From contig NZ_BOMV01000013.1 of assembly GCF_016862375.1 (NCBI RefSeq), forward strand, positions 124,001 through 188,000: a DNA stretch of 64,000 nucleotides, written 5' to 3'. The position numbers and the translations under genes were made by a program. Shown here one piece after another: positions 3,201 to 18,267 of the stretch (position 1 is its first letter; every line of letters begins with the position of its first letter). Below the pieces are notes generated by a model. The model did no database searches. It had not been told where the DNA came from and worked only from the letters and a program-made list of their open reading frames with translations. The DNA comes from Paractinoplanes rishiriensis. GTDB taxonomy: Bacteria > Actinomycetota > Actinomycetes > Mycobacteriales > Micromonosporaceae.

Positions 3201-4307
3201 TCACGGGGTCCAGACCAGCGTGGGGTTCACCTTGCCGGACCAGTCGAAGATGGCCATGTTGTCCCAGCCGTTGCCGCTGCCGTTGATGTTCGCCGGGTCC
3301 CAGCCGTTGCCGTTCACGGCGGTCCAGGTCGGCTCCCAGTAGAAGACGCCGACCGCGCCGGCGCTGCGCGCGGTGTTCTGCGTCCACTGGAACTGCTGCG
3401 CCTGCCCGGCCCAGGAGGCCGGGATGTTGTCGCACAGCACGTTGCCCGGGATCGAGTTGCCGGTGCCGTCGGCGTTGCCCGTGGTGAACTGGTACGCCGT
3501 CTCGGCGATCACCACCGGCTTGCCGTACCGGGTCCGGACGTCGGTGATCACGTTGTAGAGGTTGGTCAGCGTGCCGTGCCACATGCAGTAGTACGACAGC
3601 GCCGAGACGTCCCACTGGACGCCCTGGCCGCGGATGCCGTCGAAGAACCAGCGCGCGTTCGCCATGCTGTCGGCGTCCGCCACGTGGATCCACACCTGGG
3701 TGCCGCTGTTGCACGACTTGGTGGCGTTGTAGCCCTGCTTGAGCAGGCTGCCCAGAGGCTGGAAGTTGTTGTTGGTGACCTGCCCGCGGGGCCACAGCAT
3801 GCCGACGTTGATCTCGTTGCCGATCTGCACGCTGTCCGGCGTGGTGCCCTGTGCCTTCAAGGAATTGCAGATGTCGTACGTGTAGTTGTAGACGTCGGTC
3901 TGCAGCTGGGCCAGCGAGTGCGAGGCCCAGGCCGCCGGCGGGAACTGCTTGCCGGGGTCGGCCCAGGTGTCCGAGTAGTGGAAGTCGATCAGGAGCTTCA
4001 GGCCCTTGGACTTGATCGTCCGGGCCTGCTGGAGCACCTTGGCCTTGTTGTTGTAGCCGCTGGCCGGGTTGTTCCAGATGCGCAGCCGCGCGTAGTTGAC
4101 ACCCTTCGATTTCAGGATGTCGTACGGGTCCTGCTGCGCACCGGACGCGTTGTAGTACTTCGCGCCCAGGTCCTGGGCCCGCTGCAGGGTGGACACGTCC
4201 GCACCGAGCATGGTGAGGGGTGCCGCGTGGGCGGGGGTCGGTGAGACGGTCAGCGACAGCGCGAGGACTACGGCTGTCGCCACGAACCCGGTGAGGGATC
4301 GCTTCAT
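3201..4307 (-). CDS. Secreted arabinogalactan endo-beta-1,4-galactanase (GH53)
   Basis: A 368-residue enzyme that cleaves beta-1,4-galactan side chains outside the cell. Residues 1-29 are a Sec signal peptide ending AHA. The mature chain is a single GH53 TIM barrel starting GADVSTLQ. The acid/base glutamate is E165 in GNEIN and the nucleophile is E269 in IAETAY; NYARLRIWNNP and IDFHYSDTWADP are family blocks. There is no carbohydrate-binding module. It is the last gene of the minus-strand operon SBP-permease-permease-LacI-galactanase, so its products are most likely imported by those permeases. Expression should follow the LacI operators near 8.9 kb plus any internal promoter. Confidence 0.93.
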   Translation of the reverse strand: MKRSLTGFVATAVVLALSLTVSPTPAHAAPLTMLGADVSTLQRAQDLGAKYYNASGAQQDPYDILKSKGVNYARLRIWNNPASGYNNKAKVLQQARTIKSKGLKLLIDFHYSDTWADPGKQFPPAAWASHSLAQLQTDVYNYTYDICNSLKAQGTTPDSVQIGNEINVGMLWPRGQVTNNNFQPLGSLLKQGYNATKSCNSGTQVWIHVADADSMANARWFFDGIRGQGVQWDVSALSYYCMWHGTLTNLYNVITDVRTRYGKPVVIAETAYQFTTGNADGTGNSIPGNVLCDNIPASWAGQAQQFQWTQNTARSAGAVGVFYWEPTWTAVNGNGWDPANINGSGNGWDNMAIFDWSGKVNPTLVWTP

Positions 4308-4385: not shown

Positions 4386-5468
4386 TCAGGCGGGCGAGGA
4401 ATCCCGCAGGACCAGCGAGGTGGGCACGGTGATCGACAGCGGGGTACGCCCGGCGATCACGTCGGTGAGCAGCCGGACCATCTCCTCGCTGATCCGGTCG
4501 AGCGGGTGCCGGACGGTGCTCAGCGGCGGGTCGAGGGTGGCGGCCAGGCCGGAGTCGTCGAAACCGACCACCCGTACGTCGCCGGGCACCTCGCGGCCCG
4601 CCTCGCGCAGCACCGGCAGGGTGGCGGCGGCCATCGCGTCCGAGGCCGCGAACACCGCGTCCAGGTCGGGCGCCCGTTCGAGCAGCACCCGCATCCCGGC
4701 CGCGCCGCTCGGCCGGCCCCAGTCGCCGTGCACGATCCGGGCCGGCTCGACCGGCAGGCCGTGCGCGGTGAGCGCGTCGGTGTAGCCGTGCAGCCGGTCG
4801 ACGCCGCCCGCGGTGTCCTGCGGGCCGGTGATGGTGGCGATCCGCCGGCAGCCGGCCGCGATCAGGTGCTCGACGGCCGACCGGGCGCCGGCCCGGTCGT
4901 CGGCCGCCACCGAGCTGATCTGCTGCTCGTAGCCGAGCACCCGGCCGCAGGCAACGATCGGCACCTCGGCGCTGACCAGGTGGCTCAGCAGCGGGTCGCC
5001 GGAGTGCGGCGAGACCAGCAGCACGCCGTCCACGTGCCCGCCGGCCAGGTACGCCACCGTGCGGTTCCGCTCCTCGGGGGTCGAGGCGATCATCAGGATC
5101 AGGGTGAGCTCGCGGTCGGACAGCGCCTGGGCCACGCCGCGCAGCAGGACCGAGAAGTTCGGGTCCTCGAACAGCAGGTGCTGCGGCTCGGTGAGCAGGA
5201 ACGCGATCGACCCGGACCGGCCGGTGGCCAGCGAGCGGGCGTGCTGGTTGGCGGTGTACCCGGTGCGGGTGATCGCCTCGCGCACGGCCCGGACGGCCTC
5301 GGGGCTGACCCACTCCCGGCCGTTGAGGACGCGGGAGACGGTGGCGTAAGAGACCCCGGCCTCGCGCGCCACGTCGCGGATGGTGGGCCGCTTGCGCCCC
5401 GGCGCGGGCGAGGTCGGCACGGCTGGGATCATAGTCGGCGCCACCTCCCGTCCCCGCTGGGTCGTCAT
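4386..5468 (-). CDS. LacI-family repressor of the galactoside locus
   Basis: 360 residues. The helix-turn-helix and hinge (TIRDVAREAGVSYATVSRVL, then LATGRSG) occupy residues ~28-85. They are followed by a periplasmic-binding-protein-like sugar domain (VDGVLLVSPH, VVGFDDSGLAATLDPPLSTV). The start at 5468 is fixed by GAAGGAGGG six bases upstream. It sits in the operon between the permeases and the galactanase, 85 bp after the second permease. Two copies of TGTGACCGGTTACA in the divergent promoter region are the obvious binding sites. The inducer is probably galactose or a galacto-oligosaccharide (inference from context). Confidence 0.92.
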   Translation of the reverse strand: MTTQRGREVAPTMIPAVPTSPAPGRKRPTIRDVAREAGVSYATVSRVLNGREWVSPEAVRAVREAITRTGYTANQHARSLATGRSGSIAFLLTEPQHLLFEDPNFSVLLRGVAQALSDRELTLILMIASTPEERNRTVAYLAGGHVDGVLLVSPHSGDPLLSHLVSAEVPIVACGRVLGYEQQISSVAADDRAGARSAVEHLIAAGCRRIATITGPQDTAGGVDRLHGYTDALTAHGLPVEPARIVHGDWGRPSGAAGMRVLLERAPDLDAVFAASDAMAAATLPVLREAGREVPGDVRVVGFDDSGLAATLDPPLSTVRHPLDRISEEMVRLLTDVIAGRTPLSITVPTSLVLRDSSPA

Positions 5469-5553: not shown

Positions 5554-6453
5554 TCATGCCTTCACCGCGCCGGCGCCCAGGTCGACCCGCCAATAGCGCT
5601 GCAGGCCGAGGAAGAGGGCGATCAGCGGCAGGATCGACAGCAGCGCGCCGGTGACCACCGAGATGTACATCGCCGGCTGGTTGGCGCCCTGGTTGAGCAG
5701 GCCGTTGAGGCCCACGGTGAGCGGGAACAGCCGGTCGTCGCCCAGCATGATGTACGGCAGCATGAAGTTGTTCCAGATCGCCACGAACTGGAAGAGGAAC
5801 ACGGTGACCAGCCCGGAGCGCATCATCGGCAGCGCCACCCGGGCGAACGTGCGCCAGTCGCCGGCTCCGTCGATCCGGGCCGCCTCGAGCACCTCGGTGG
5901 GCACCGCGGCGGCTGCGAAGATCCGGCACAGATAGATCCCGTACGGGGTGATGATGCTGGGCAGCAGCACCGACCAGTAGGTGTTGGTCATCCCCACCTT
6001 GGCCAGCAGCAGGTACTGCGGGATGGCCAGGATGACGCCGGGCACCAGCACCCCGGCCAGGATCAGGTTGAAGACCACCTGCTTGCCCGGGAACGTGTAC
6101 TTGGCCAGCGCGAACCCGGCCATCGCGGACACCAGCGTGGACGCGGCCGCGCCGACCCCGGCGTACAGGGCGGTGTTGAGCATCCACCGCCAGTACAGGC
6201 CGTCCCGGTACGCGTTCAGGTCGGCGACGTTGTCGAACAGGTGGGTGCTGGGCGCCAGCGTGAAGGTGGAGAACAGCTCGCCGGAGCTCTTGGTCGCCGC
6301 GATCAGCACCCAGAGCACCGGGAACAGGCAGTACAGCGCGCCGAGCAGCAGCAGCACGGTGGCGGCCGGGCTGATCCGGCGGTTGCTCCGGGGCGCCGGT
6401 CCGGACGGCCGGACCACCGCGGGCGTGGCCGGGACCACGGTCGAGGTGCTCAC
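5554..6453 (-). CDS. Sugar ABC transporter permease, MalG type
   Basis: A 299-residue inner-membrane permease with six predicted helices. The EAA loop that docks the ATPase reads EVLEAARIDGAGDWRTFARVALP. The GTG start at 6453 is chosen because AGGAGG lies directly upstream, the preceding permease stops 2 bp earlier, and the N-terminus then matches the family. It belongs to the CUT1 carbohydrate importers. No ATPase is encoded in this operon, so it probably shares an MsiK/UgpC-like subunit made elsewhere. Confidence 0.92.
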   Translation of the reverse strand: MSTSTVVPATPAVVRPSGPAPRSNRRISPAATVLLLLGALYCLFPVLWVLIAATKSSGELFSTFTLAPSTHLFDNVADLNAYRDGLYWRWMLNTALYAGVGAAASTLVSAMAGFALAKYTFPGKQVVFNLILAGVLVPGVILAIPQYLLLAKVGMTNTYWSVLLPSIITPYGIYLCRIFAAAAVPTEVLEAARIDGAGDWRTFARVALPMMRSGLVTVFLFQFVAIWNNFMLPYIMLGDDRLFPLTVGLNGLLNQGANQPAMYISVVTGALLSILPLIALFLGLQRYWRVDLGAGAVKA

Positions 6454-6455
6454 GA

Positions 6456-7412
6456 TCAGTCCTCCTGGTTGAAGGCGCGGTTGCCGACGAGCTTGAGGAA
6501 CCCGAAGGACACGACGAAGGTGGCCAGCGCGATGATCACCGAGGTGGCAGCGGCGGAGTAGACGTCGTTGCGGGTGAACGCGTCCCGGTAGACCTTCATC
6601 AGCGGCGCCCAGGTGCTCGAGATGGTGTTGCTCAACGGCCGCAGCGTCATCGGCTCGGCGAAGACCTGCAGCGTGGCGATGAGCGAGAAGACGAACGTCA
6701 TGATCAGCGAGGGCAGCACGATCGGGATCTTGATGCGCCAGGCGATCTGGCTGTCCGACGCGCCGTCCAGCCGGGCCGCCTCGTACAGGTCGGTGGGGAT
6801 GGCCCGCAGCGCGGTGTAGATGACGATCATGTTGAAGCCGGTGCCGCCCCAGACCGCGATGTTGGCGATCGACCACAGCACCCACGAGCCGGAGAGCAGG
6901 TCCGGCGCGGCCAGCCCGACGCCCTCCAGCGCGTCGTTGAACGGGCTCACCCGGGGCAGGTAGAGGAAACCCCAGAGCAGCGAGGCGACCACGGCCGGCA
7001 CCGCGTAGGGCAGGAAGATCGAGGTGCGGGCGAAGGTGCCGACCCGGGTGCGGCCGGCGTCCAGCAGCAGGGCCATCAGCAGCGCGAGGCCGAGCATGGT
7101 GGGAACCACGATCATCCCGTACGCGCCGACGCGGTAGACGCTCGGCAGGAAGTCCGGATCGGACAGCGACCGGGTGTAGTTCTCCAGCCCGGCCCAGATC
7201 TCGGTGCGCGAGCCGCGGCCCAGGCCCAGCCCGCTGACCTTGACCTTGCGCAGGCTCAGGTAGCCGGCGTAGATGATCGGCGCGGCCAGGAACGCGGCGA
7301 ACAGGATCAGCGCCGGGGCCAGGAACGAGTACGGCGCCAGGGCGCTCTTGCCGCCCCGCTCGGACGTCCGGGGCGTGCGGGTGTTGGTGGGGAACGCCGT
7401 CACGGCCGTCAC
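6456..7412 (-). CDS. Sugar ABC transporter permease, MalF type
   Basis: A 318-residue CUT1 permease with a short cytoplasmic N-terminus and six helices (first at ~SFLAPALILFAAFLAAPIIY). The EAA motif is DLYEAARLDGASDSQIAWRIKIP. It pairs with the MalG-type protein encoded 2 bp downstream. It follows the binding-protein gene after a strong stem-loop, an arrangement that normally makes the binding protein more abundant than the permeases. Confidence 0.92.
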   Translation of the reverse strand: MTAVTAFPTNTRTPRTSERGGKSALAPYSFLAPALILFAAFLAAPIIYAGYLSLRKVKVSGLGLGRGSRTEIWAGLENYTRSLSDPDFLPSVYRVGAYGMIVVPTMLGLALLMALLLDAGRTRVGTFARTSIFLPYAVPAVVASLLWGFLYLPRVSPFNDALEGVGLAAPDLLSGSWVLWSIANIAVWGGTGFNMIVIYTALRAIPTDLYEAARLDGASDSQIAWRIKIPIVLPSLIMTFVFSLIATLQVFAEPMTLRPLSNTISSTWAPLMKVYRDAFTRNDVYSAAATSVIIALATFVVSFGFLKLVGNRAFNQED

Positions 7413-7476: not shown

Positions 7477-8793
7477 TCAGCCGGCGACGTTGAAGCCGGT
7501 CTTCTTCATGTCGTCGACCGTGGTCTGCTGCATGGTGTCGAGTGCCTTGCTGAACTCGGCCGCGTTCTTGGACTGCGCGGCCTTGGCGAACGCGTCGTTG
7601 TAGCTGGAGTACGCGACGTTCACGTTCGGCCCGTAGGTGAACGCGTTGGTGACCTTCGCGGCCTCGGCGGCGATCGTGTAGAAGTCCGGCTGGTTCTCGA
7701 AGAACGCCGGCGGCTTGGTCAGCGCGGTGGCGGTGGCGTCCACCGACGCGGGGTAGACGTTGGCGGTGCCGGCCAGTGCCTTGAGCGCCTCGGGGTCGGT
7801 GTTCAGCCAGGCCACGAACTTGGCGGCGGCGGCCTTGTTCTTGCTCTGGGTGGTGACGCTGGTGGCCGAGCCGCCCCAGTTGCCGTTCTTGGGCGCCGCG
7901 GCGTCCCACTGCGGCAGCTGGGTGGCCTTCCACTTGCCCTTGGTGCTGGCCGCGTTGCCCTCCAGCACGCCCGGTCCCCAGACCGCGCCGAGCCAGCCCA
8001 CCTGGGTGCCGTCGTTGAGCGCGGCGTTCCACTCCGGGGTGTACATCGGCTTGTTGTCGACCGCGCCCTCGGCGACCAGGCCACCCCAGTAGTCGGCGAC
8101 CTTCTTGGTGTTGGCGTCGTTGATCGCGACCGTCCAGGCGTCGCCCTGCACGCCCCACCAGGACGCGCCGGCCTGCTGCGAGAGACCGGCGAACCAGCCC
8201 GCGTCGGCGGCCGAGAAGGTGCCGAGGAACTGCTTCTTGTTCGCTGCGTTGATCTTGCGCGCGGCCGCCGCGTACTCGTCCCAGGTCTTCGGCGCCTGGA
8301 TGCCCAGCTTCTCGAAGACGTCGGAGCGGTAGAAGAACATCATCGGGCCGGTGTCCTGCGGCACGCCGTAGACGGCCTCGGAGCCGAGGGTCACCGAGTT
8401 CCAGGCCGACTCGGGGAACTTCGCCTTGACGTCGCCGACCTCCTTGGCGATGTCCGCGATCGCGTCGGCCGAGACCAGGGTGGGGATCTTCTGGTACTCG
8501 GCCTGCATGACGTCGGGGGCGCCGCTGCCGGCCTTGATCGCGGTGAGCAGCTTGGTGACCGCCGGGTCGCCGCCGTCCTGCTTGTTGACGGTGACCTTGA
8601 TGTCGGGGTTCTTCGCGTTCCAGCCCTCGACGACCTTGTCCATGTTCGGGGCCCAGGTCCAGTAGGTGAGCTCGACCTTCTCGCCCGGCTTGGGCGCGGT
8701 GTCGCCGCCCTTGTCGTCGGAGCTGCTGCACGCGGTGGTCAACATGAGAGCTGCGGCCAGCACACCGGCCAGCGGCAGAGTTATCTTCTTCAT
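7477..8793 (-). CDS. Extracellular sugar-binding lipoprotein
   Basis: A 438-residue family 1 solute-binding protein. The lipobox LTTAC puts the lipidated cysteine at C22. Mature features include VELTYWTWAPNMDKVVEGW, DVMQAEYQKIP and MMFFYRSDVFEKLGI, typical of oligosaccharide-binding proteins. The ATG at 8793 is preceded by GAGGAGG; the frame stays open farther upstream but only this start gives a signal peptide. It is the first gene of the galactan operon, under the LacI-type operators at 8873 and 8963. The ligand is probably galacto-oligosaccharides made by the GH53 enzyme (inference). Confidence 0.93.
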   Translation of the reverse strand: MKKITLPLAGVLAAALMLTTACSSSDDKGGDTAPKPGEKVELTYWTWAPNMDKVVEGWNAKNPDIKVTVNKQDGGDPAVTKLLTAIKAGSGAPDVMQAEYQKIPTLVSADAIADIAKEVGDVKAKFPESAWNSVTLGSEAVYGVPQDTGPMMFFYRSDVFEKLGIQAPKTWDEYAAAARKINAANKKQFLGTFSAADAGWFAGLSQQAGASWWGVQGDAWTVAINDANTKKVADYWGGLVAEGAVDNKPMYTPEWNAALNDGTQVGWLGAVWGPGVLEGNAASTKGKWKATQLPQWDAAAPKNGNWGGSATSVTTQSKNKAAAAKFVAWLNTDPEALKALAGTANVYPASVDATATALTKPPAFFENQPDFYTIAAEAAKVTNAFTYGPNVNVAYSSYNDAFAKAAQSKNAAEFSKALDTMQQTTVDDMKKTGFNVAG

Positions 8794-8872: not shown

Positions 8873-8886
8873 TGTGACCGGTTACA
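8873..8886. promoter_or_regulatory. LacI-type operator, copy 1 (importer side)
   Basis: TGTGACCGGTTACA is a near-perfect palindrome centred on the CCGG typical of LacI-family sites. It lies 80 bp upstream of the binding-protein ATG. A TTGACA-like -35 reads on the minus strand at 8907-8912, so the operator would overlap the -10 region and block transcription. Confidence 0.8.
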
Positions 8887-8962: not shown

Positions 8963-8976
8963 TGTGACCGGTTACA
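8963..8976. promoter_or_regulatory. LacI-type operator, copy 2 (GH35-GalT side)
   Basis: An identical 14-mer, 90 bp centre to centre from copy 1 and 26 bp before the GTG of the GH35-GalT gene. The pair places both divergent transcripts under one regulator and could allow looping. Confidence 0.8.
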
Positions 8977-9002
8977 GTCCTTGTTTCCTGTGAGGAGCGC
9001 CA

Positions 9003-12000
9003 GTGCCCACCGACCCGCTACTCGTCCGGCACCATCCCTGGGCCGAGCCACCGCGCCGGCCACGGATGAGCAACGACGAGGACGTGCGTCCGGGCGTCGA
9101 GCTGACCAGCCGCTACCTGATCCGCGACGGCGTGCCCGTCATCCCGGTGTCCGGCGAGATCCACTACAGCCGGGTCCCGCGCGCCCGGTGGCGGCAGCGG
9201 CTGCGCCAGATGCGGGCCGGCGGCATCACGGTCGCCGCCACCTACGTCTTCTGGTTGCACCACGTCGAACGCCGCGGCGAGCCCCGCTTCGACGGCAATC
9301 TGGACGTGGCCGCGTTCGTCGACCTGGCCGTGGCCGAGGGTCTCGACGTGGTGCTGCGGATCGGGCCGTGGTGCCACGGCGAGACCCGCAACGGTGGCTT
9401 CCCGGACTGGGTGCAGCAGGCCCCGGTCGCGCACCGCACCGACGACCCGGCGTACCTGGACCTGGTGCGCGAGTACTTCGGTCAGCTCGCGGCGGCGCTC
9501 GGCGGCCGCTGCGGCCCGGACGGCCCGGTACTCGGCATCCAGCTGGAGAACGAGCTGTACGACCAGCCGGGCCACCTCGTCACGCTCAAGCGGCTGGTCC
9601 GCGAGGCCGGGATGTCCGCGCCGCTGTGGACCGCGACCGCGTGGGGCGGCGCCGACCTGCCGGCCGAGGACGTGCTGCCGCTGTACGGCGGGTACGGCGA
9701 CGGCTTCTGGGTGGACGCCGACGCGCCCTGGGACCCGACGTTCCGGGACCACTACTTCTTCTCCCACGTCTGGGACGACCCGGGCATCGGGTTCGACGTG
9801 CGACGCCTCCAGCTGCAGGTGTCCAGCGCCGACCGGGCGCACCCGCGTACCCCCAATGCTCTTTTCCCCGCCGCCACCTGCGAGCTGGGCGGCGGCATGG
9901 CCACCGCCTACCACCGCCGGCCGCGCCCCGCGGCGCGGGACATCGCCACCATCGCGCATTGCAAGATCGGTAACGGGTCGGCCTGGCAGGGCTATTACAT
10001 GTACGCGGGCGGCACCAACCCGCCCGGCGAACGCGGTCTCCAGGAGTCGCACGCCACCGGCTATCCGAACGACATGCCCCGGCTCGGGTACGACTTCCAC
10101 GCCCCGATCGGCGAGGCCGGTGTGCTGTCGGCCGGCCACGCCGAACTGCGCCGGCAGCACGCGTTCCTGGCCGCGTTCGGCGGCACCCTGGCCGAGATGC
10201 CGTCCAGCCTGCCCGAGGTGCGCCCGGCCGGCGTGGAGGACTCGCAGACCCTGCGCTGGGCGCTGCGCAGCGACGGGACCAGCGGTTTCCTCTTCGTGGC
10301 CTGGCATCAGCCGCACGTGCCGCTGTCCACCTACCGGGGCGCCCAGTTCTGCGTCTCGCTCCCGGCCGGCGAGATCGTGCTGCCCGCCGAGCCGGTCGAC
10401 ATCCCGCCGGGCACGCTGGCCCGCTGGCCGCTCGCGCTGACCGCCGGCGGCGTGCGGCTGGACTGGGCCACCGCGTCCGCGCTCACCCTGCTGCCCGCAT
10501 CATCCGGATCTTGGCCGGTGCCCACGCTCGTGCTGGTCGCCGAGGCCGGTATCGCAGCCACCTACTCGGTCGGCGGTTCCGCCGCCACCGTCGAGCCGGG
10601 CCTGTCGCCGGTCCGGCTCCGGGCCGACGGCGGCGAGCTGGACCTGCTGGTCCTGCCCGCCGCCGTCGCCGACCGGATCTGGGTGTGCGAGGACGGCCCG
10701 GCCCGGCGCCTGCTGCTGTCCGGGGCGTCACTCAGCTGGGGCGCGGACGGCCGGATCGAGGCCGACGGGGAGGTCGAGGTCTACGACGCCGGCGTCTTTG
10801 CGCCGCTACCGCTGGACGCCTATCCCGCCGCCGCTGCTGCCTCCGCCGCCGCCGATGACGTGACGCTCTCGCCGGCGCTGGTGCGTGCCGCCGGTGCGGC
10901 GGTGCCGGTGGCCTACGGCAAGTTCGACGGCCGGCAGTCGGCGCCGTCGCCGGAGACCTTCGACGAGCTCGCGGCGGTCTATCGGGTGCCGGTGCCGGAC
11001 TGGGCCGCGGCCGACGCCTACCTGCACATCCGCTGGGCCGGCGACGTCGGCCAGCTGCGGGTCGGCGGGCGGGTGGTGACCGACCGGTTCTGGGACGGCT
11101 CGGAGTGGATCGTCTCGCTGCGGGACGCCGGTTTCCGTCCCGGCGCCGAGGTCACGCTGCACCTGTTGCCGCTGGCCGCGGGCTCGCCGGTGGCGCTGCC
11201 GCAGGACGCCCGCGACCGCCTGGCGGCGGCCGACGGCCAGCTTCTGGCGATCGACACGCTGCGGGTGGTCCGGCGCCGGCTCCGCCGGGAGCCTCATGCC
11301 GTACGCCGCCAGTCCCGCCGGATGGCCGACGGGCGCGAGATCATCTACTTCGACGACACGCGACCCTTCGCCGACCGGACCGCGACCGACACCCGGCCGT
11401 TGCCGCCCGCCGCGGCCGACCCGCAGATGCGGTACGACCCGCTGACCGGCGAGTGGATCGCGATCGCGGCCCACCGCAACGACCGCACCTTCCTGCCGGC
11501 GGCCGACCAGGACCCGCTGGCGCCCACCGTCCCCGGCGGTTTCCCCACCGAGATCGCCGAGGCCTCGTACGACGTCGTGGTCTTCGAGAACCGCTTCCCG
11601 TCGTTCTCGCCCCGCGTGTCCGGACCGCTCGACCTGATCGACGGCGAGGACCTGTGGCCGGTACGCCCGGCGGCCGGCCGCACCGAGGTGGTGTGCTTCT
11701 CGTCGGCCGCCACCGGCTCGTTCGGGACCCTGACCCCACACCGCGCGCGCACCGTGATCGAGGCCTGGGCCGACCGGACCGCCGAACTGGGCAGCGATCC
11801 CGCGGTCGAGTACGTCTTCGTGTTCGAGAACCGGGGCCGCGAGATCGGGGTGACGCTGCCGCACCCGCACGGCCAGATCTACGCGTTCCCGTTCCTGCCG
11901 CCGAAGGCCGCCCGGATGCTGGCGATGGCTCAGGCGCACCGCACCGGCACCGGCCGCAACCTGTTCCAGGACGTGCTGGACGCCGAGGTCCGCTCCGGCC

Positions 12001-12395
12001 GCCGGATTGTGGCGACCTCCGAACACTGGACCGCGTACGTGCCGGCGGCCGCGCGCTGGCCGGTCGAGGTGCACCTGGCCCCGAACCGCGACGTCCCGGA
12101 CCTGCCGGCCCTGACCGCGCCGGAACGCGACGACCTGGCGCTGATCTATCTGGACGTCCTGCAGCGCCTGGACCGCTATTACCCCGGGGTCGACCGGTTG
12201 CCGTACATCTCCGGGGTTTTCCAGGCGCCCGCCCGCACCCACCGCGACCTGTTCCGCCTGCATCTGCAGGTGTTCTCGGTCCTGCGCGCTCCGGCCAAGC
12301 TGAAGTACCTGGCCGGCGTCGAATCGGCGATGGGTTCGTGGATCAGCGACACCACACCGGAACGGGTGGCGGAGCGGCTACGGGAATTGGGCTGA
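9003..12395 (+). CDS. GH35 beta-galactosidase fused to galactose-1-phosphate uridylyltransferase
   Basis: One uninterrupted 1130-codon frame covers two enzymes. Residues 1-~765 are a cytoplasmic (no signal peptide) GH35 beta-galactosidase: IPVSGEIHYSR, acid/base E184 in LENELYD, probable nucleophile E294 in TCELGGG, and C-terminal jelly-roll domains. Residues 774-1130 are a full-length GalT with the active-site HPHGQ motif (H954-P-H956-G-Q958; H956 is the uridylylated residue by family rule), plus MRYDPLTGEWIAIA and VFENRFPSF. The GTG at 9003 has GAGGAG six bases upstream. The start-like codon at 11322 (MADGREII) has no ribosome site, so a fusion rather than two genes is favoured. Galactokinase, the step between the two activities, is not in the window. 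The frame is followed by a strong terminator. Confidence 0.88.
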   Translation: MPTDPLLVRHHPWAEPPRRPRMSNDEDVRPGVELTSRYLIRDGVPVIPVSGEIHYSRVPRARWRQRLRQMRAGGITVAATYVFWLHHVERRGEPRFDGNLDVAAFVDLAVAEGLDVVLRIGPWCHGETRNGGFPDWVQQAPVAHRTDDPAYLDLVREYFGQLAAALGGRCGPDGPVLGIQLENELYDQPGHLVTLKRLVREAGMSAPLWTATAWGGADLPAEDVLPLYGGYGDGFWVDADAPWDPTFRDHYFFSHVWDDPGIGFDVRRLQLQVSSADRAHPRTPNALFPAATCELGGGMATAYHRRPRPAARDIATIAHCKIGNGSAWQGYYMYAGGTNPPGERGLQESHATGYPNDMPRLGYDFHAPIGEAGVLSAGHAELRRQHAFLAAFGGTLAEMPSSLPEVRPAGVEDSQTLRWALRSDGTSGFLFVAWHQPHVPLSTYRGAQFCVSLPAGEIVLPAEPVDIPPGTLARWPLALTAGGVRLDWATASALTLLPASSGSWPVPTLVLVAEAGIAATYSVGGSAATVEPGLSPVRLRADGGELDLLVLPAAVADRIWVCEDGPARRLLLSGASLSWGADGRIEADGEVEVYDAGVFAPLPLDAYPAAAAASAAADDVTLSPALVRAAGAAVPVAYGKFDGRQSAPSPETFDELAAVYRVPVPDWAAADAYLHIRWAGDVGQLRVGGRVVTDRFWDGSEWIVSLRDAGFRPGAEVTLHLLPLAAGSPVALPQDARDRLAAADGQLLAIDTLRVVRRRLRREPHAVRRQSRRMADGREIIYFDDTRPFADRTATDTRPLPPAAADPQMRYDPLTGEWIAIAAHRNDRTFLPAADQDPLAPTVPGGFPTEIAEASYDVVVFENRFPSFSPRVSGPLDLIDGEDLWPVRPAAGRTEVVCFSSAATGSFGTLTPHRARTVIEAWADRTAELGSDPAVEYVFVFENRGREIGVTLPHPHGQIYAFPFLPPKAARMLAMAQAHRTGTGRNLFQDVLDAEVRSGRRIVATSEHWTAYVPAAARWPVEVHLAPNRDVPDLPALTAPERDDLALIYLDVLQRLDRYYPGVDRLPYISGVFQAPARTHRDLFRLHLQVFSVLRAPAKLKYLAGVESAMGSWISDTTPERVAERLRELG

Positions 12396-12409: not shown

Positions 12410-12454
12410 CCGGGATGGGGTGGCTGCGGGAGCCACGCCGCCACCCCATCCCGG
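12410..12454 (+). terminator. Intrinsic terminator of the GH35-GalT gene
   Basis: A perfect 15-bp stem (CCGGGATGGGGTGGC / GCCACCCCATCCCGG) with a 15-nt loop, followed by TTTT, 15 bp after the stop codon. Confidence 0.92.
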
Positions 12455-12655
12455 TTTTCTCCCGTCGCATGGCATTAAGCCACCGATTTGCTAAGGCGCA
12501 TTTAAAGATGTGCCTCATCTCCCGGCTCCAAATCATTCTCCCCAAATTCATACCCGTCAATAATTTCGGTTTGCAGGTTTGTTGCACGCCGCCGGGTTGG
12601 CCACAGGCAGACGACCGGTCCGCCGCGCGGGCCGGATCTTGCGGGACAATGGGTC
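12455..12655. other. AT-rich noncoding leader upstream of the AbiEii-like pair
   Basis: Bases ~12470-12595 are visibly richer in A/T than anything else nearby (GCATTTAAAGAT, CCAAATCATT, CAATAATTTCGG). No plausible reading frame was seen. A GACAAT hexamer at 12645-12650 lies 5 nt before the next ATG and is a candidate -10. Low GC next to a toxin-like gene is compatible with horizontal acquisition. Confidence 0.5.
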
Positions 12656-12988
12656 ATGGAGCCGACCGTGCGGCTGCCGTCCCGCTTGCTCGGGGCGGAG
12701 AAGCGCATCCCCAACGACCTTGCCATGCTCAACGGCCCTGCCGAGGGCGTGGTCCACCTGCCGAACAGACTCTGCTGGTCGGGCCTGAACGTCTTCGACG
12801 TGACCGACCCCGACGACCGCCTGACGCTGTACACCACCCTGCTGGACTGTGGTCAGCTACCGGATGTCATCGAATACATGCACGCCGACTACCTCTGCCA
12901 GGATTGGCCGAGGATCCGGCGGTTGACGTCCCGGCGGCTTATCGCCATCTGGGAGTCGCGCCTGCCGGAACTGGCCGCCACCCGCTGA
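12656..12988 (+). CDS. Small protein preceding AbiEii-like nucleotidyltransferase (possible antitoxin partner)
   Basis: A 110-residue protein, soluble and without a signal peptide; it begins MEPTVRLPSRLLGAEKR. The middle (LCWSGLNVFDVTDPDDRLTLYTTLL) and basic C-terminal helices (WPRIRRLTSRRLIAIWESRL) do not match a domain I can name. Its stop is 2 bp before the GTG of the nucleotidyltransferase, so the two are almost certainly co-translated. No Shine-Dalgarno is visible; GACAAT 5 nt upstream suggests a leaderless message. By position it could be the antitoxin/regulator of an AbiE-like pair, but no helix-turn-helix is evident. Confidence 0.7.
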   Translation: MEPTVRLPSRLLGAEKRIPNDLAMLNGPAEGVVHLPNRLCWSGLNVFDVTDPDDRLTLYTTLLDCGQLPDVIEYMHADYLCQDWPRIRRLTSRRLIAIWESRLPELAATR

Positions 12989-12990
12989 CT

Positions 12991-13722
12991 GTGGAAGATC
13001 TGCACAGAAAGCTTCTCAATATCGGCTTCGACGCCGGCAGCGATCTCGGCCTGGTTCTCGCCGGCGGCTATGCACTCACCGCCCACGAGTTGCTCAAGCG
13101 GTCGTCCCGCGACATCGACTTCGCCACCGCGACGCAGTTGCCGATGTCGGTGGTCATCTTCCGGCTGGCGCAGGCCTACCGGAACGCGGGCTACCGGGTC
13201 GTCATCCTCGAGTCCACGCAGCGCATGGCCCGGCTGAACGTGACGACGCCCGATGCGGAGTGTGAGGTCGACATCCTCAAGGAGGCCATCGGTCCGCCGG
13301 CGATGCTGCAGATCGGACCGGTCCTGGCTTTCGAGGACGCCGTCGGGTTGAAGATGCGGGCGCTCCATGAGCGTGCCGCTCATCGCGACTTCATCGACGT
13401 GCGCGCCGCGTCGGCGCGGCTGAGCCATCGTGACCTGGAGGCATGTTGCGCCCGGCACACACCGGGATTCTCGCTCGCGGATCTCGCCGACCGGCTTGGG
13501 GCGGTCACCGGGCGCCGGCGGTGGGAGTTCTTCACCTACGGCCTCGATGACGACGACATCGACGCCCTGATCCGGTGGGCGATCGAATGGGAGACCGACA
13601 TTCGTTTGCGCCTGGCGGCCGGCGAAACCGGCCCCGAGCGTGCGGGTGGACGACTACTGGGACGGCTATCTCGATCGACCGTGAAAACGCCGCTTATCCA
13701 TTGGGGACGGATTCAAACCTGA
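12991..13722 (+). CDS. AbiEii/AbiGii-type nucleotidyltransferase (toxin-like)
   Basis: 243 residues, GTG start 2 bp after the upstream gene. The polymerase-beta nucleotidyltransferase signature is present: LAGGYALTAHEL (GG motif), RSSRDIDFAT with the metal-binding pair D41 and D43, and a third acidic strand in CEVDIL. AbiEii proteins are bacteriostatic toxins of type IV toxin-antitoxin/abortive-infection pairs. Related enzymes add nucleotides to tRNA, but the substrate here cannot be told. The frame continues open upstream to 12415; that part overlaps the 110-residue gene and is not used. The C-terminal ~40 residues are low in similarity to the core and may be a tail. Confidence 0.82.
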   Translation: MEDLHRKLLNIGFDAGSDLGLVLAGGYALTAHELLKRSSRDIDFATATQLPMSVVIFRLAQAYRNAGYRVVILESTQRMARLNVTTPDAECEVDILKEAIGPPAMLQIGPVLAFEDAVGLKMRALHERAAHRDFIDVRAASARLSHRDLEACCARHTPGFSLADLADRLGAVTGRRRWEFFTYGLDDDDIDALIRWAIEWETDIRLRLAAGETGPERAGGRLLGRLSRSTVKTPLIHWGRIQT

Positions 13723-13839: not shown

Positions 13840-16428
13840 ATGGACGAGCGTTACGACACGTACTGCGCGGTTGATCCGCTCTTCTACGACTCGCTGACCA
13901 ACACCAAGGCGCCGGCCGTGGCGTTTCTCGCCGGGCGTGAACTGCCCGCCGGGTGGGAGCGGGCGGCCAAGGACGACTGGCTGATCTGCGCGCCGGACGG
14001 GGACTCGCTGCCGGCTCAGGGGTGGAAGGTGCACGTGTCGGCGCGGCTGGACAACGCGGAGCGGGTGCTCGGTGTGGTCTGGGACTACTGCTTGGGGCAC
14101 CGGATCGCGTTCAAGTACCTGCGGGCGCCGCAGATGCTGCTCATGCGCAACGCCAAGTATGCGGCCCGGGGCGCCAGCGGGAAGTTCATCACGGTCTACC
14201 CGCATGACGACGCCGAACTCGAGCGGATCTGCGCCGAGTTGAGCGAACTGCTCGACGGGGAGATCGGGCCGACGATCCTGTCCGATCTGCGGTACGGGCC
14301 GGGGCCGGTGCACGTGCGCTACGGCGGCTTCGCGGCGCGCTACTGCATGTCCGACGACGGGCAGGTCGTCCCCGCGATCGCCAACGCGCAGGGCACCCTC
14401 GTACCCGATCACCGGGACCCGGTCTTCCACCTGCCGGACTGGGTGGAGCTGCCCGAGTTCCTGGCGCCGCACCTCGCGGCCCGCAATGCGGTCAGCACGA
14501 CGCAGATCCCGTACGCGATCAGCAGCGTTCTGCATTTCTCCAACGGCGGGGGCCTCTACACCGGCACCGACACGCGCACCGGCGCGGCCGTCGTGCTCAA
14601 GGAGGGGCGGCCGCATGCCGGCCTCGACGCGACCGGTGCCGACGCGATCACCCGGCTGCGGCGCGAGCACGAGATGCTGACCGCGCTGGCCGGGGTGCCG
14701 CAGGTGGTCCGGGCGCACGACCTGTTCGCGCTGGGTGAGCACGAGTTCCTGGTGCTGGAGAAGGTGGATGGCAAGCCGCTGAACCGCGAGCTGGTGCAGC
14801 GCTACCCGCTGACCCGGCCCGGCGCGACCGAAGCCGAACTGGCCGCGTTCACCGGCTGGGCCATGCACGTCCTCGACCAGGTGGAGCGGGCCGTGCGGGC
14901 CATCCATGAACGCGGAATCGTGTACGGCGACCTGCACCTGTTCAACATCCTGGTGGACGACGACGACCGGATCACGCTGATCGACTTCGAGGTGGCCCGT
15001 CCGGTGGGCGCGCCCGGTCCGCCGGCGCTGCGCAACCAGGCGTTCGCCGCGCCCCGCGACCGGACCGGCTTCGCCGTGGACGAGTACGCCCTGGCCTGCC
15101 TGCGGCTCGCGCTGTTCCTGCCGCTGACCGCCATGTTGCGGCTCGCGCCGGGCAAGGCCGACCACCTCGCGGAGATCATCGCGGCGCGTTTCCCGGTTCC
15201 CGACGACTATTTGACCGATGCCGTACGGGTCATCCGCGGCGAAGACCCGGCCGCGCCCCTGACCGCCGACCGCACCGCGCTGTCGGCCGGCATCCTGGCC
15301 AGCGCCACCCCGTCGCGGGACGACCGGCTCTTCCCCGGCGACATCGAGCAGTTCCGCAGCGGCGGCCTCGGTTTCGCGTACGGCGCGGCCGGCGTGCTCT
15401 GGGCGCTCCGGACGGCCGGTGCCGGCAGCTTCCCGGACCACGAGCAGTGGCTCGCCGACCGGGTGCGACAACCCGCGTCCGGCAGCCGGCTCGGCTTCTA
15501 CGACGGCCTGCACGGGATCGCGTACGCCCTGCACGAACTGGGCCGCCGCGACGAGGCGCTCGCCCTGCTCGAGATCTGCCTCGACCAGCCCTGGCGGCAC
15601 CTGTCGCTGGACCTCGCGAGCGGCCTGGCCGGCGTCGGCCTGTCGCTGACCCACCTGGGCCGCGCGACCGGCGAGCCGCGGGTGATCGCGGCCGCCGACG
15701 AGGTGACCAGCCTGCTCGCCGACCGGCTCGGCCAGGCTGCGCCGGCCACCAGCGCGGGGCTCCATCGGGGCGCGAGCGGTCCCGCTCTGCTTTTCCTGCA
15801 CCGGTACGAGGAGACCGGCGACCCGGCCATGCTGGAGCTCGCGGCCGGCGCGCTGCGGCGCGACCTGCGGCACTGCGTGCTCCGCGAGGACGGCGGCCTG
15901 TACGTCGACGAGGGCTGGCGGCACATGCCCTACCTGGCGCACGGCAGCGTGGGCATCGGCATCGTGCTGGACCGCTACCTGCGGCACGCCCCGGACCACG
16001 AGTTCGGCGACGAGTTCGGCGACGAGTTCCGCGACGCCGCGACCGCGGTCCGCAAGGTGGCCGCCTCGCCGTTCTACGCCCAGTCCGGCATGTTCGCCGG
16101 CCGGGCCGGGATCATCGCGTACCTGGCCACCCGGGTCGCCGGCGGGCTGGAGGACGACGGCGAGCTGTCCCGGCAGGCCGATGCCCTGTCCTGGCACGTG
16201 CTGCCGTACCGCGACCGTCTCGCCTTCCCCGGCGACCAGCTGCTGCGGCTCAGCATGGATCTGGCCACCGGAACGGCGGGCGCGCTGCTCGCCCTGGCCA
16301 TGGCCGGCGATCCGTCGATCGGCCTGCCGTTCCACACCCCGGCGTTATCGCCGGCCACAGACTTCCGGCGCGCGGAAGAACCATCCACCAAGTTGCACCA
16401 TCAGGAGAGAGAAGGAGTACAGCCATGA
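13840..16428 (+). CDS. ramC: Class III lanthionine synthetase (LanKC/RamC type)
   Basis: An 862-residue trifunctional enzyme that phosphorylates Ser/Thr of the precursor peptide, eliminates the phosphate and closes thioether rings. Residues 1-~210 are the lyase-like domain. Residues ~225-~500 form a Ser/Thr-kinase-like domain with VVLKEGRPH (ATP lysine region), the catalytic loop IVYGDLHLFNIL (D364) and LIDFEVA in the DFG position (D382). Residues ~510-862 are a LanC-like toroid (GFYDGLHGIAYAL, AGLHRGASGPALL) without the Cys-Cys-His zinc ligands, as usual for class III. Its TGA overlaps the precursor ATG (ATGA), so synthesis is translationally coupled. The ribosome site upstream of 13840 is GGAGGGGCGGGAG. 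Confidence 0.95.
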   Translation: MDERYDTYCAVDPLFYDSLTNTKAPAVAFLAGRELPAGWERAAKDDWLICAPDGDSLPAQGWKVHVSARLDNAERVLGVVWDYCLGHRIAFKYLRAPQMLLMRNAKYAARGASGKFITVYPHDDAELERICAELSELLDGEIGPTILSDLRYGPGPVHVRYGGFAARYCMSDDGQVVPAIANAQGTLVPDHRDPVFHLPDWVELPEFLAPHLAARNAVSTTQIPYAISSVLHFSNGGGLYTGTDTRTGAAVVLKEGRPHAGLDATGADAITRLRREHEMLTALAGVPQVVRAHDLFALGEHEFLVLEKVDGKPLNRELVQRYPLTRPGATEAELAAFTGWAMHVLDQVERAVRAIHERGIVYGDLHLFNILVDDDDRITLIDFEVARPVGAPGPPALRNQAFAAPRDRTGFAVDEYALACLRLALFLPLTAMLRLAPGKADHLAEIIAARFPVPDDYLTDAVRVIRGEDPAAPLTADRTALSAGILASATPSRDDRLFPGDIEQFRSGGLGFAYGAAGVLWALRTAGAGSFPDHEQWLADRVRQPASGSRLGFYDGLHGIAYALHELGRRDEALALLEICLDQPWRHLSLDLASGLAGVGLSLTHLGRATGEPRVIAAADEVTSLLADRLGQAAPATSAGLHRGASGPALLFLHRYEETGDPAMLELAAGALRRDLRHCVLREDGGLYVDEGWRHMPYLAHGSVGIGIVLDRYLRHAPDHEFGDEFGDEFRDAATAVRKVAASPFYAQSGMFAGRAGIIAYLATRVAGGLEDDGELSRQADALSWHVLPYRDRLAFPGDQLLRLSMDLATGTAGALLALAMAGDPSIGLPFHTPALSPATDFRRAEEPSTKLHHQEREGVQP

Positions 16429-16547
16429 CGCTTCTGGACCTTCAGGGGATGCAGGTTTCGGCGACCGAGCGCGGCGGCGGAGGCGGCAGCCAGGCCAGCC
16501 TGCTTCTGTGTGGCGACAGCTCGCTGAGCGTCACCACCTGTAACTGA
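16425..16547 (+). CDS. ramS: SapB-like class III lanthipeptide precursor
   Basis: A 40-residue peptide. The leader begins MTLLDLQGMQ, carrying the LxDLQ recognition motif of class III synthetases. The 21-residue C-terminus holds two Ser-xx-Ser-xxx-Cys motifs, S22-S25-C29 and S32-S35-C39, each able to form one ring. The core SLLLCGDSSLS is, from memory of the family, nearly identical to SapB of Streptomyces coelicolor, an extracellular surfactant that lets hyphae leave the aqueous surface. The ATG overlaps the synthetase stop and has GAAGGAG seven bases upstream. The leader contains a Gly run (G17-G21) just before the expected cleavage region, unlike the acidic spacer of SapB. A stem-loop follows 15 bp after the stop. 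Confidence 0.95.
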   Translation: MTLLDLQGMQVSATERGGGGGSQASLLLCGDSSLSVTTCN

Positions 16548-16561
16548 TCTATCAGGTACGC

Positions 16562-16587
16562 GGCCCCGCCCGAACCCGGGCGGGGCC
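16562..16587 (+). terminator. Stem-loop between precursor and transporter genes (attenuator)
   Basis: A perfect 11-bp stem (GGCCCCGCCCG / CGGGCGGGGCC) with an AACC tetraloop, then TGATTAAT. Partial termination here would give much more precursor mRNA than transporter mRNA. Confidence 0.75.
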
Positions 16588-16608
16588 TGATTAATCTGGG
16601 GGCCCCGG

Positions 16609-18267
16609 ATGCTGCTCCGCCTGGTACGCGACGCCGGTGCACATGTGGTCGTGCTGGCCGTTGCCGGCCTGGTCGGTGCCGTCGCGGAGTTGTTGCTGCC
16701 CGCGGCGCTGGGCCGGGCCGTGGACGCGGTGCTGGGCCTGGGCGGGACGGCCACGATCTGGCTCACGGTCGCGATCGCCCTGATCGGTGCCGCGGCCGTG
16801 TCCGAGATCCTGCACGACCTGGCCGCGGCGTCCGGGACGGCCCGCGCCACCCGGGTCGTCCGGCACCGGCTGCTGCGAAGGCTGTTCGCGCTGCCCACCG
16901 AATCTGCGGCCGGCTACCCGCTGGGCGACCTGGTGGCCCGGCTGTCCAGCCAGTCCGCCGACGCCGGGTCGGCGGCCGCCGCGGTGGTGGGTGGGGTGTT
17001 CGCGGTGCTGCCGCCGGTGGGCGGCCTCGTGGCGCTGATCCTGCTCGACTGGCGACTGGGAGCCGCGTACCTCCTCGGTCTTTTGATCTTGGGTTTGCTT
17101 CTGCGGGGTTTTGTGACGGACGCGTCCGAGGCGGCGGGCGGCTATCAGCGCGTGCTCGGGACGATGGCGGGGAACCTGGCCGAGGCGCTGGGCGGCAGCC
17201 GGACAATCGCCGCCGCCGGCACGGTCGACCGGGAGATCGCGCGGGTGTTGCGCCCCCTGCCGTCGCTGAGCAGATACGGCACCGGGACCTGGACGGCGCT
17301 GGCCACCGCGGCGGGCCGGACCGCGCTGCTGGCGCCGCTGACCCTGATCGCCGTGATCGTGGCCGGCGGCCTGCTGCTCGCGCTCGGCAGCCTCACGCCG
17401 GGCTCGTTGCTGGCCGCGGTGCAGTATGCGGCGCTGGGTACCGGGCTGGGCGCGGTGCTGGCGACGCTGAACCGGCTGGTGCGGGCCCGGACCGGCGCGG
17501 AACGGGTCGCTGCGGTGCTGGACATTATGCCGGCGCCTGCCGGCGCCCGGAACCTGGCCGCCGGACCCGGTGAGCTGCGGCTCGAAGGGGTGACGGTCCG
17601 GGCGGGTGGGCGAACGGTGCTGTCCGGGATCGATCTGACCGTGCCGGGTGGCGCGACGGTGGCGGTGGTGGGGCGGTCCGGTGCGGGTAAGTCGGTGCTG
17701 GCCGCGGTAGCCGGGGGACTGCGGTCGCCCGGCGCCGGTCGGGTGCTGCTCGACGGGGTGCCGCTGGCGGACTGCGCACCGGATGCCCTGGCCGCCGCGG
17801 TGGGCTACGGCTTCGAACGGCCGGTGCTGGTGGGCGCCACCATCGGCGACGCGATCACGATGGGCCGGCCCGGCGGTGCCCGGCGTGCTGCGGAGGTGGC
17901 CGCGATCGACGGGTACGTGGCGCGGTTGCCGGGCGGGTATGACACGCCGCTGGACGAGGCGCCGATGTCCGGTGGTGAGCGGCAGAGAATCGGCCTGGCG
18001 CGGGCGCTGCGCGGCGACCGGCTGCTGATCCTGGACGACGCCTCGTCCAGTCTGGACACCGTCACCGAGGCCCGGATCACGTCGAGCTTGACGAGAAACG
18101 CCGGCGACCGCACGCGCCTGGTGGTCACCCATCGGCGGGCCACGGCGGCCCGGGCCGACCTGGTCGCGTGGGTCGACGGTGGGCGGGTGCGGGCGGTGGC
18201 GCCACATCGGGTGCTGTGGGCCGACCCCCGGTACCGGGCTGTGTTCGCCGGCGAGGTGACGGGATGA
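16609..18267 (+). CDS. ramA: ABC exporter half-transporter with degenerate ATPase site (RamA-like)
   Basis: 552 residues: a membrane domain (residues ~1-320) followed by an ATP-binding domain. Walker A is GRSGAGKS (K361) and the signature is MSGGERQRIGLARAL. The Walker B end reads LILDDASS, so the catalytic glutamate is Asp (D477); the Q-loop position reads YGFERPV, without the usual Gln. Such a degenerate site is normal for one partner of a heterodimeric exporter. The partner is the next gene, which overlaps it by 4 bp (ATGA). The expected role is export and perhaps maturation of the SapB-like peptide; no peptidase C39 domain is present. Confidence 0.9.
   Translation: MLLRLVRDAGAHVVVLAVAGLVGAVAELLLPAALGRAVDAVLGLGGTATIWLTVAIALIGAAAVSEILHDLAAASGTARATRVVRHRLLRRLFALPTESAAGYPLGDLVARLSSQSADAGSAAAAVVGGVFAVLPPVGGLVALILLDWRLGAAYLLGLLILGLLLRGFVTDASEAAGGYQRVLGTMAGNLAEALGGSRTIAAAGTVDREIARVLRPLPSLSRYGTGTWTALATAAGRTALLAPLTLIAVIVAGGLLLALGSLTPGSLLAAVQYAALGTGLGAVLATLNRLVRARTGAERVAAVLDIMPAPAGARNLAAGPGELRLEGVTVRAGGRTVLSGIDLTVPGGATVAVVGRSGAGKSVLAAVAGGLRSPGAGRVLLDGVPLADCAPDALAAAVGYGFERPVLVGATIGDAITMGRPGGARRAAEVAAIDGYVARLPGGYDTPLDEAPMSGGERQRIGLARALRGDRLLILDDASSSLDTVTEARITSSLTRNAGDRTRLVVTHRRATAARADLVAWVDGGRVRAVAPHRVLWADPRYRAVFAGEVTG

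Follow-up and report, generated by a model that had tools for sequence, protein, structure and literature searches.

A conserved GH35-GalT fusion gene in a probable beta-1,4-galactan utilisation locus of Paractinoplanes rishiriensis and its relatives

Analysis of a 64,000-nucleotide stretch of the Paractinoplanes rishiriensis genome (hereafter the window) revealed a single gene in which a GH35 beta-galactosidase is joined to a galactose-1-phosphate uridylyltransferase (GalT). Both enzymes and the kind of locus are known, and the combination is real and conserved among relatives. To judge from sequence, the gene probably encodes a bifunctional enzyme that would act in the cytoplasm and would put GalT, together with the galactosidase, under galactan control. 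The fusion gene and the features that surround it are the following.

3201..4307, minus strand: GH53 endo-beta-1,4-galactanase (Pfam PF07745, E 7.2e-106)
4386..5468, minus strand: LacI-family regulator
5554..6462, minus strand: ABC permease (Pfam BPD_transp_1)
6456..7412, minus strand: ABC permease (Pfam BPD_transp_1)
7477..8793, minus strand: solute-binding protein of a sugar ABC transporter (Pfam SBP_bac_1)
8873..8886, no strand assigned: palindrome TGTGACCGGTTACA, copy 1, putative LacI-type operator
8963..8976, no strand assigned: palindrome TGTGACCGGTTACA, copy 2, 90 bp from copy 1, putative LacI-type operator
9003..12395, plus strand: GH35-GalT fusion gene, a single 1130-codon open frame that starts with GTG
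9117..10160, plus strand: GH35 catalytic domain, residues 39-386 (Pfam PF01301)
11283..11342, plus strand: junction stretch, reading about HRVR(K/R)T-x-R-x-M-x-DGREI in relatives
11322..12389, plus strand: GalT domain, about residues 774-1129, with HPHGQ at 954-958 (Pfam PF01087 and PF02744)

Reading of the frame showed no internal stop codon between 9003 and 12395 on the plus strand, and a GAGGAG sequence at 8992-8997 has its last base 5 bases 5′ of the GTG start. The GH35 domain scored 155.7 bits against a Pfam cut-off of 27 (E 2.8e-45), and the C-terminal half matched both parts of GalT, the N-domain at residues 807-966 (E 5.7e-32) and the C-domain at residues 979-1129 (E 7.8e-15). The fusion also scored over the cut-off of TIGR00209 (galT_1; 137.6 bits vs. 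102.1) and below that of the stricter PRK11720 model (183 vs. 448). Open frame and Pfam domains thus agree with the first-pass annotation, which had proposed a single 1130-codon frame joining GH35 and GalT, and the residues E184 and E294 and the HPHGQ motif were found at the positions that it gave. Its remark that the GalT part carries no ribosome site of its own also held, as no AGGA/GGAG-like stretch was present in the 20 bases preceding the internal ATG at 11322. This was the case in 10 of 13 fused genes, and the other three (L066, L067 and L068) carry an AGGA 11 bases 5′ of the internal ATG. With no conserved ribosome site, separate translation of GalT from this ATG is considered unlikely.

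A search of 200 relatives gave 12 other genomes in which almost the whole fusion is matched within a single frame. When the C-terminal 495 residues encoded in the window were used as the query against 354 Micromonosporaceae genomes, one open frame ran across the junction in 18 of them, comprising 15 of the window's genus (its own genome included) and 3 of a second genus. Among these 18, again counting the genome of the window, the junction stretch was 75-100% identical, and several are single-contig genomes. In a nineteenth carrier (G003) the pieces of the match fall in one 1180-aa frame, and its contig (L070, Paractinoplanes bogorensis) reads as one frame; Actinoplanes liguriensis (G032, L101), whose junction includes 221 unknown bases, is a probable twentieth. 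The fusion is therefore carried by 16 of the 67 genomes of the genus, plus the probable one, and by 3 genomes of the second genus. Named carriers include Paractinoplanes durhamensis, P. toevensis, P. tereljensis, Actinoplanes regularis, A. palleronii and three Micromonospora strains. The same two-domain order thus exists in relatives and, as the first-pass annotation had supposed, the fusion is natural, with both enzymes apparently intact.

We also inspected 80 named loci, which overlap largely with the counted genomes (e.g. L064 is G004) and were not added to the count. Twelve were fused, L101 was probably so, and 67 were others, so the possibility that relatives always encode two separate genes did not materialise. 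A separate GalT gene lies about 1.2 kb behind GH35 in L119 (Microbacterium aoyamense) and L134 (titled Planococcus sp. APC 4015), and in 64 of the 80 loci no GalT was matched near GH35 (up to about 9 kb per side, often less). Outside the Micromonosporaceae, no fusion was detected among the 80 inspected out of 158 related stretches. A match in Nonomuraea proved to be an ordinary GalT of the CxxC type, and the 12 kb examined there contained no GH35. As regards a mobile origin, a scan of viral contigs confirmed no relative, and no record of a plasmid collection held 80% of the query in one place. Because independent genomes carry the same open junction, conserved as described above and in several cases within a single contig, assembly error was rejected, a missed indel that restores a stop is very unlikely, and it is extremely improbable that the single frame reflects any artefact of assembly or sequencing or a recent chance read-through.

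The history of the fusion was approached with two trees. The GH35 tree comprised 53 rows (the window, 50 of the 80 named loci and two further genomes), 14 of them fused with L101 counted as such, and the fused state was scattered over it in a way that needs 8 changes. The GalT tree comprised 36 rows: 20 fused domains, a gene of genome G022, 13 ordinary GalT and the two from L119 and L134. Here, all 20 fused domains formed one group with the G022 gene (100/99), apart from the ordinary, L119 and L134 rows, and many inner branches were weakly supported. Since the G022 gene is the only unfused one that falls within the group of fused GalT domains, and since the junctions of the fused genes are alike, several independent fusions are disfavoured, and the simplest reading would be one fusion followed by many losses. 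GH35 occurs without a GalT half in many relatives, and three unfused loci, G010, G023 and L080 (Actinoplanes siamensis), retain broken GalT pieces behind GH35; the GalT half is therefore dispensable. The G022 gene is located as follows.

L145:6492-7613 (contig C19 of G022): GalT of the fused type that stands alone, behind a GH42 galactosidase gene

Its ATG overlaps the stop codon of the GH42 gene and it is the sole GalT match in that genome. Since it branches beside fused rows in the GalT tree (91/99), it may represent a release from the fusion.

The genes for the GH53 enzyme, the LacI-family regulator, the two permeases and the binding protein lie upstream of the fusion gene and are divergent from it. 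The N-terminus of the GH53 protein, judged by eye, resembles a signal peptide. Endo-galactanase, importer, galactosidase and local regulator are thus found together, and the fusion gene most likely belongs to a locus for the utilisation of beta-1,4-galactan (pectic galactan), a substrate suggested by this set of genes. The first-pass annotation mentions neither this locus nor the paired palindromes, the additional ordinary galT or the GalT decay seen among relatives. Counterparts of these genes were counted in the 80 named loci by heuristic frame picking and clustering: 43 had the binding protein, 37 permease 1, 33 the LacI regulator, 31 a GH53-like protein and 27 permease 2. One other member of the GH53 cluster was checked by Pfam. 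The ganSPQAB genes of Bacillus subtilis likewise combine a galactan endo-enzyme, an importer and an intracellular galactosidase, which is a GH42 enzyme, unlike the GH35 found here, and they are not known to include a fused GalT. In bifidobacteria, the galactan cluster is described as an extracellular endo-galactanase (GalA), an ABC transporter and a GH42 beta-galactosidase (GalG) under LacI-type control (PMC7889515), the same kinds of function as in the window. However, its galactosidase is GH42 and not GH35, and the available text of that source (PMC7889515) does not mention a GalT fusion. On the other side of the fusion gene, the window holds a frame with an AbiEii-like nucleotidyltransferase match (12415-13722) and, at 13840-18267, a RamC/LanC-like synthetase with an ABC transporter; a 40-aa peptide at 16425-16547 resembles, by eye, a class III lanthipeptide precursor.

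Both copies of the palindrome TGTGACCGGTTACA lie between the fusion gene and the divergent importer, regulator and GH53 genes, and these are the only two places where it occurs in the genome. The pattern TGTRACCGGTYACA matched the two TGTGACCGGTTACA sites and three further sites elsewhere in the genome.

C57:334276-334289 and C71:220310-220350: three palindromes of the form TGTGACCGGTCACA, two of them 27 bp apart

Read backwards, TGTRACCGGTYACA gave 0 matches in the genome, and the pattern had no match on C39 or C69, the contigs that carry the ordinary galT and galK. In 16 loci chosen by hand out of the 80, a palindrome pair was present within 420 bases upstream in 13 (spacing of 90 bp in 12 and 88 in one), a single palindrome in two (a variant in L072) and none in L103. 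The operon stretch of G022 had no copy, even with two mismatches. When up to two mismatches were allowed in the window, 2 of 100 shuffles also gave two matches. We infer that the palindromes are LacI-type operators to which the regulator would bind.

With regard to the GH35 half, E184 and E294 were invariant in all 25 hand-chosen GH35 rows. By alignment, E184 corresponds to the ENE of solved GH35 enzymes (acid/base) and E294 to the glutamate in EFWxGWF of ordinary GH35 paralogues (nucleophile), the latter placement coming from one low-diversity profile alignment, as the alignments to solved enzymes stop short of E294. Structure comparison of the predicted GH35 part with GH35 enzymes gave a best Z of 34.9 (rmsd 5.2, 640 aligned). 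The solved enzymes 8fa5, 3d3a and 6ik6 (from tomato, with beta-1,4-galactobiose) have the fold in common with it and, by alignment, the acid/base glutamate, whereas identity to the fusion was 17-23% in the structural alignments (GH35 rows shown), with no row aligning to the GalT half. The GH35 half is most likely a beta-galactosidase. The phosphorolysis-like mode that the first-pass annotation had considered for it is disfavoured, because both glutamates, including the nucleophile, are kept.

The same type of GH35 was found fused C-terminally to an alpha-L-arabinofuranosidase (Alpha-L-AF_C) in L089 (4746-8552, Micromonospora sp. CPCC 205371) and L103 (9001-12906, Virgisporangium aurantiacum). 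In L119, a GalT identified by Pfam stands behind GH35, with a LacI-like frame between them on the other strand and a galK-like frame after GalT (frames read by eye). Enzyme pairing around this GH35 may therefore be a recurring theme in galactan loci. In L065 (P. toevensis) and L081 (P. tereljensis), the C-terminal part of the GH35 half contains a charged, tandem-repeat-like insert.

The GalT half has the fold and the HPH-x-Q motif in common with the GalT of E. coli and human and with the 6k5z enzyme. Modelled alone, the domain reached a mean pLDDT of 92.4 and matched 6k9z with a Z of 36.5 (rmsd 1.9, 301 aligned), a tie with 6k5z. Its prediction was poor when the full-length protein was modelled, so we make no claim on domain arrangement. 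The two histidines and the glutamine of HPHGQ were intact in all 20 fused rows, and the nucleophile, by homology to H166 of E. coli, is H956. Metal ligands were compared according to the list in PMC5081055. While E. coli GalT keeps the zinc ligands C52, C55 and H115, in the GalT that sits behind GH35 these were replaced in 20 of 20 fused rows, that is, three of the four residues of an E. coli-type zinc site (C52, C55, H115, H164), and the iron ligand H281 was replaced in 8 of the 20, that of the window among them. The 13 ordinary GalT rows all kept the HPHGQ residues, C52, C55, H115 and H281.

These replacements bear on whether the GalT half could be a leftover, or a module for dimerisation or stability of the galactosidase, that is no longer an enzyme of note. 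The available part of PMC5081055 reports that the zinc site is important for catalysis in E. coli, but also that human GALT carries other residues at two of the four ligand positions and that the site varies among orthologues, so that, as far as that source goes, an E. coli-type zinc site does not define the GalT family. The scattered distribution of the fused state, the broken remnants in relatives and the ordinary galT present in the genome fit a leftover too. However, the catalytic HPHGQ residues are intact throughout, and in G022 a GalT of this type is kept as a separate gene and as the only one matched. Moreover, in nine chosen pairs dN/dS was 0.11-0.29 for GalT, near the 0.06-0.27 of the GH35 catalytic domain, and 0.20-0.46 for the rest of GH35, values that are rough since a simple method was applied to G+C-rich genes. 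GalT was higher than the GH35 catalytic domain in 5 pairs, including the 3 that involve the gene of the window, lower in 3 and equal in 1. In these nine pairs the GalT half is thus under purifying selection, and we consider a leftover or a purely structural module unlikely.

The step between the two halves of the fusion requires a galactokinase. The genome, which the first-pass annotation had suggested searching for galK, does contain one galactokinase match, on another contig (C69), where the preceding frame reads by eye as galE. Contig C39 holds an ordinary GalT, and a distant GalT-like match lies on C119. Galactokinase was matched in all 8 of the further genomes chosen. One congener (G027) has a galactokinase match and no GalT match.

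Under the reading that we favour, a bifunctional enzyme under galactan control, the GH53 enzyme would cut galactan outside the cell, galacto-oligosaccharides would enter via the ABC importer, and the GH35 half would release galactose. The galactokinase encoded on the other contig would convert this into galactose-1-phosphate, and the GalT half would then turn galactose-1-phosphate and UDP-glucose into UDP-galactose and glucose-1-phosphate. The fusion would most likely serve mainly to keep the induction of GalT and galactosidase, both governed by the local LacI regulator, locked at a ratio of one to one, and we propose that a burst of galactose would in this way pass without a build-up of toxic galactose-1-phosphate. 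The fused copy may be redundant, given that the genome also carries an ordinary galT.

The fact that the two halves flank the kinase step, and that the fused form has been kept in about 20 genomes, might also be accounted for by a physical metabolon, in which a galactokinase docked on the fusion would allow channelling of galactose and galactose-1-phosphate from one half to the other, much as the first-pass annotation had suggested. Galactose-1-phosphate would then never accumulate, and lineages without that need would shed the GalT half. Yet galK lies on another contig beside the galE-like frame, no docking feature was identified, no sequence evidence for channelling was found and the joint structure is not confidently predicted, all of which makes such docking, and with it the proposed shedding, rather unlikely. 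Alternatively, the GalT half might have changed its substrate and uridylylate another sugar phosphate, for instance one derived from arabinogalactan side chains. The fused GalT and the ordinary GalT of the genus do fall into separate groups, the fused one being 57% identical to the ordinary copy in its own genome, and the arabinofuranosidase fusions of L089 and L103 would suit such a role. Against it, fused and ordinary GalT have in common most of a KLKYLAG-x-ES stretch close to the C-terminus, and the only GalT matched in G022 is of this type; a changed substrate is thus quite improbable.

In the open-licence literature, searched at title and abstract level, no GH35-GalT fusion was described, which lends weak support to its absence from print. 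Fusions are usually expected to join neighbouring steps of a pathway, and this one joins the steps on both sides of a kinase step. The carriers, together with three relatives in which stages of GalT decay can be read, make it possible to ask in nature whether selection acts on co-induction alone or on physical linkage. They could also help to show how these bacteria might escape galactose-1-phosphate stress when they grow on galactan.
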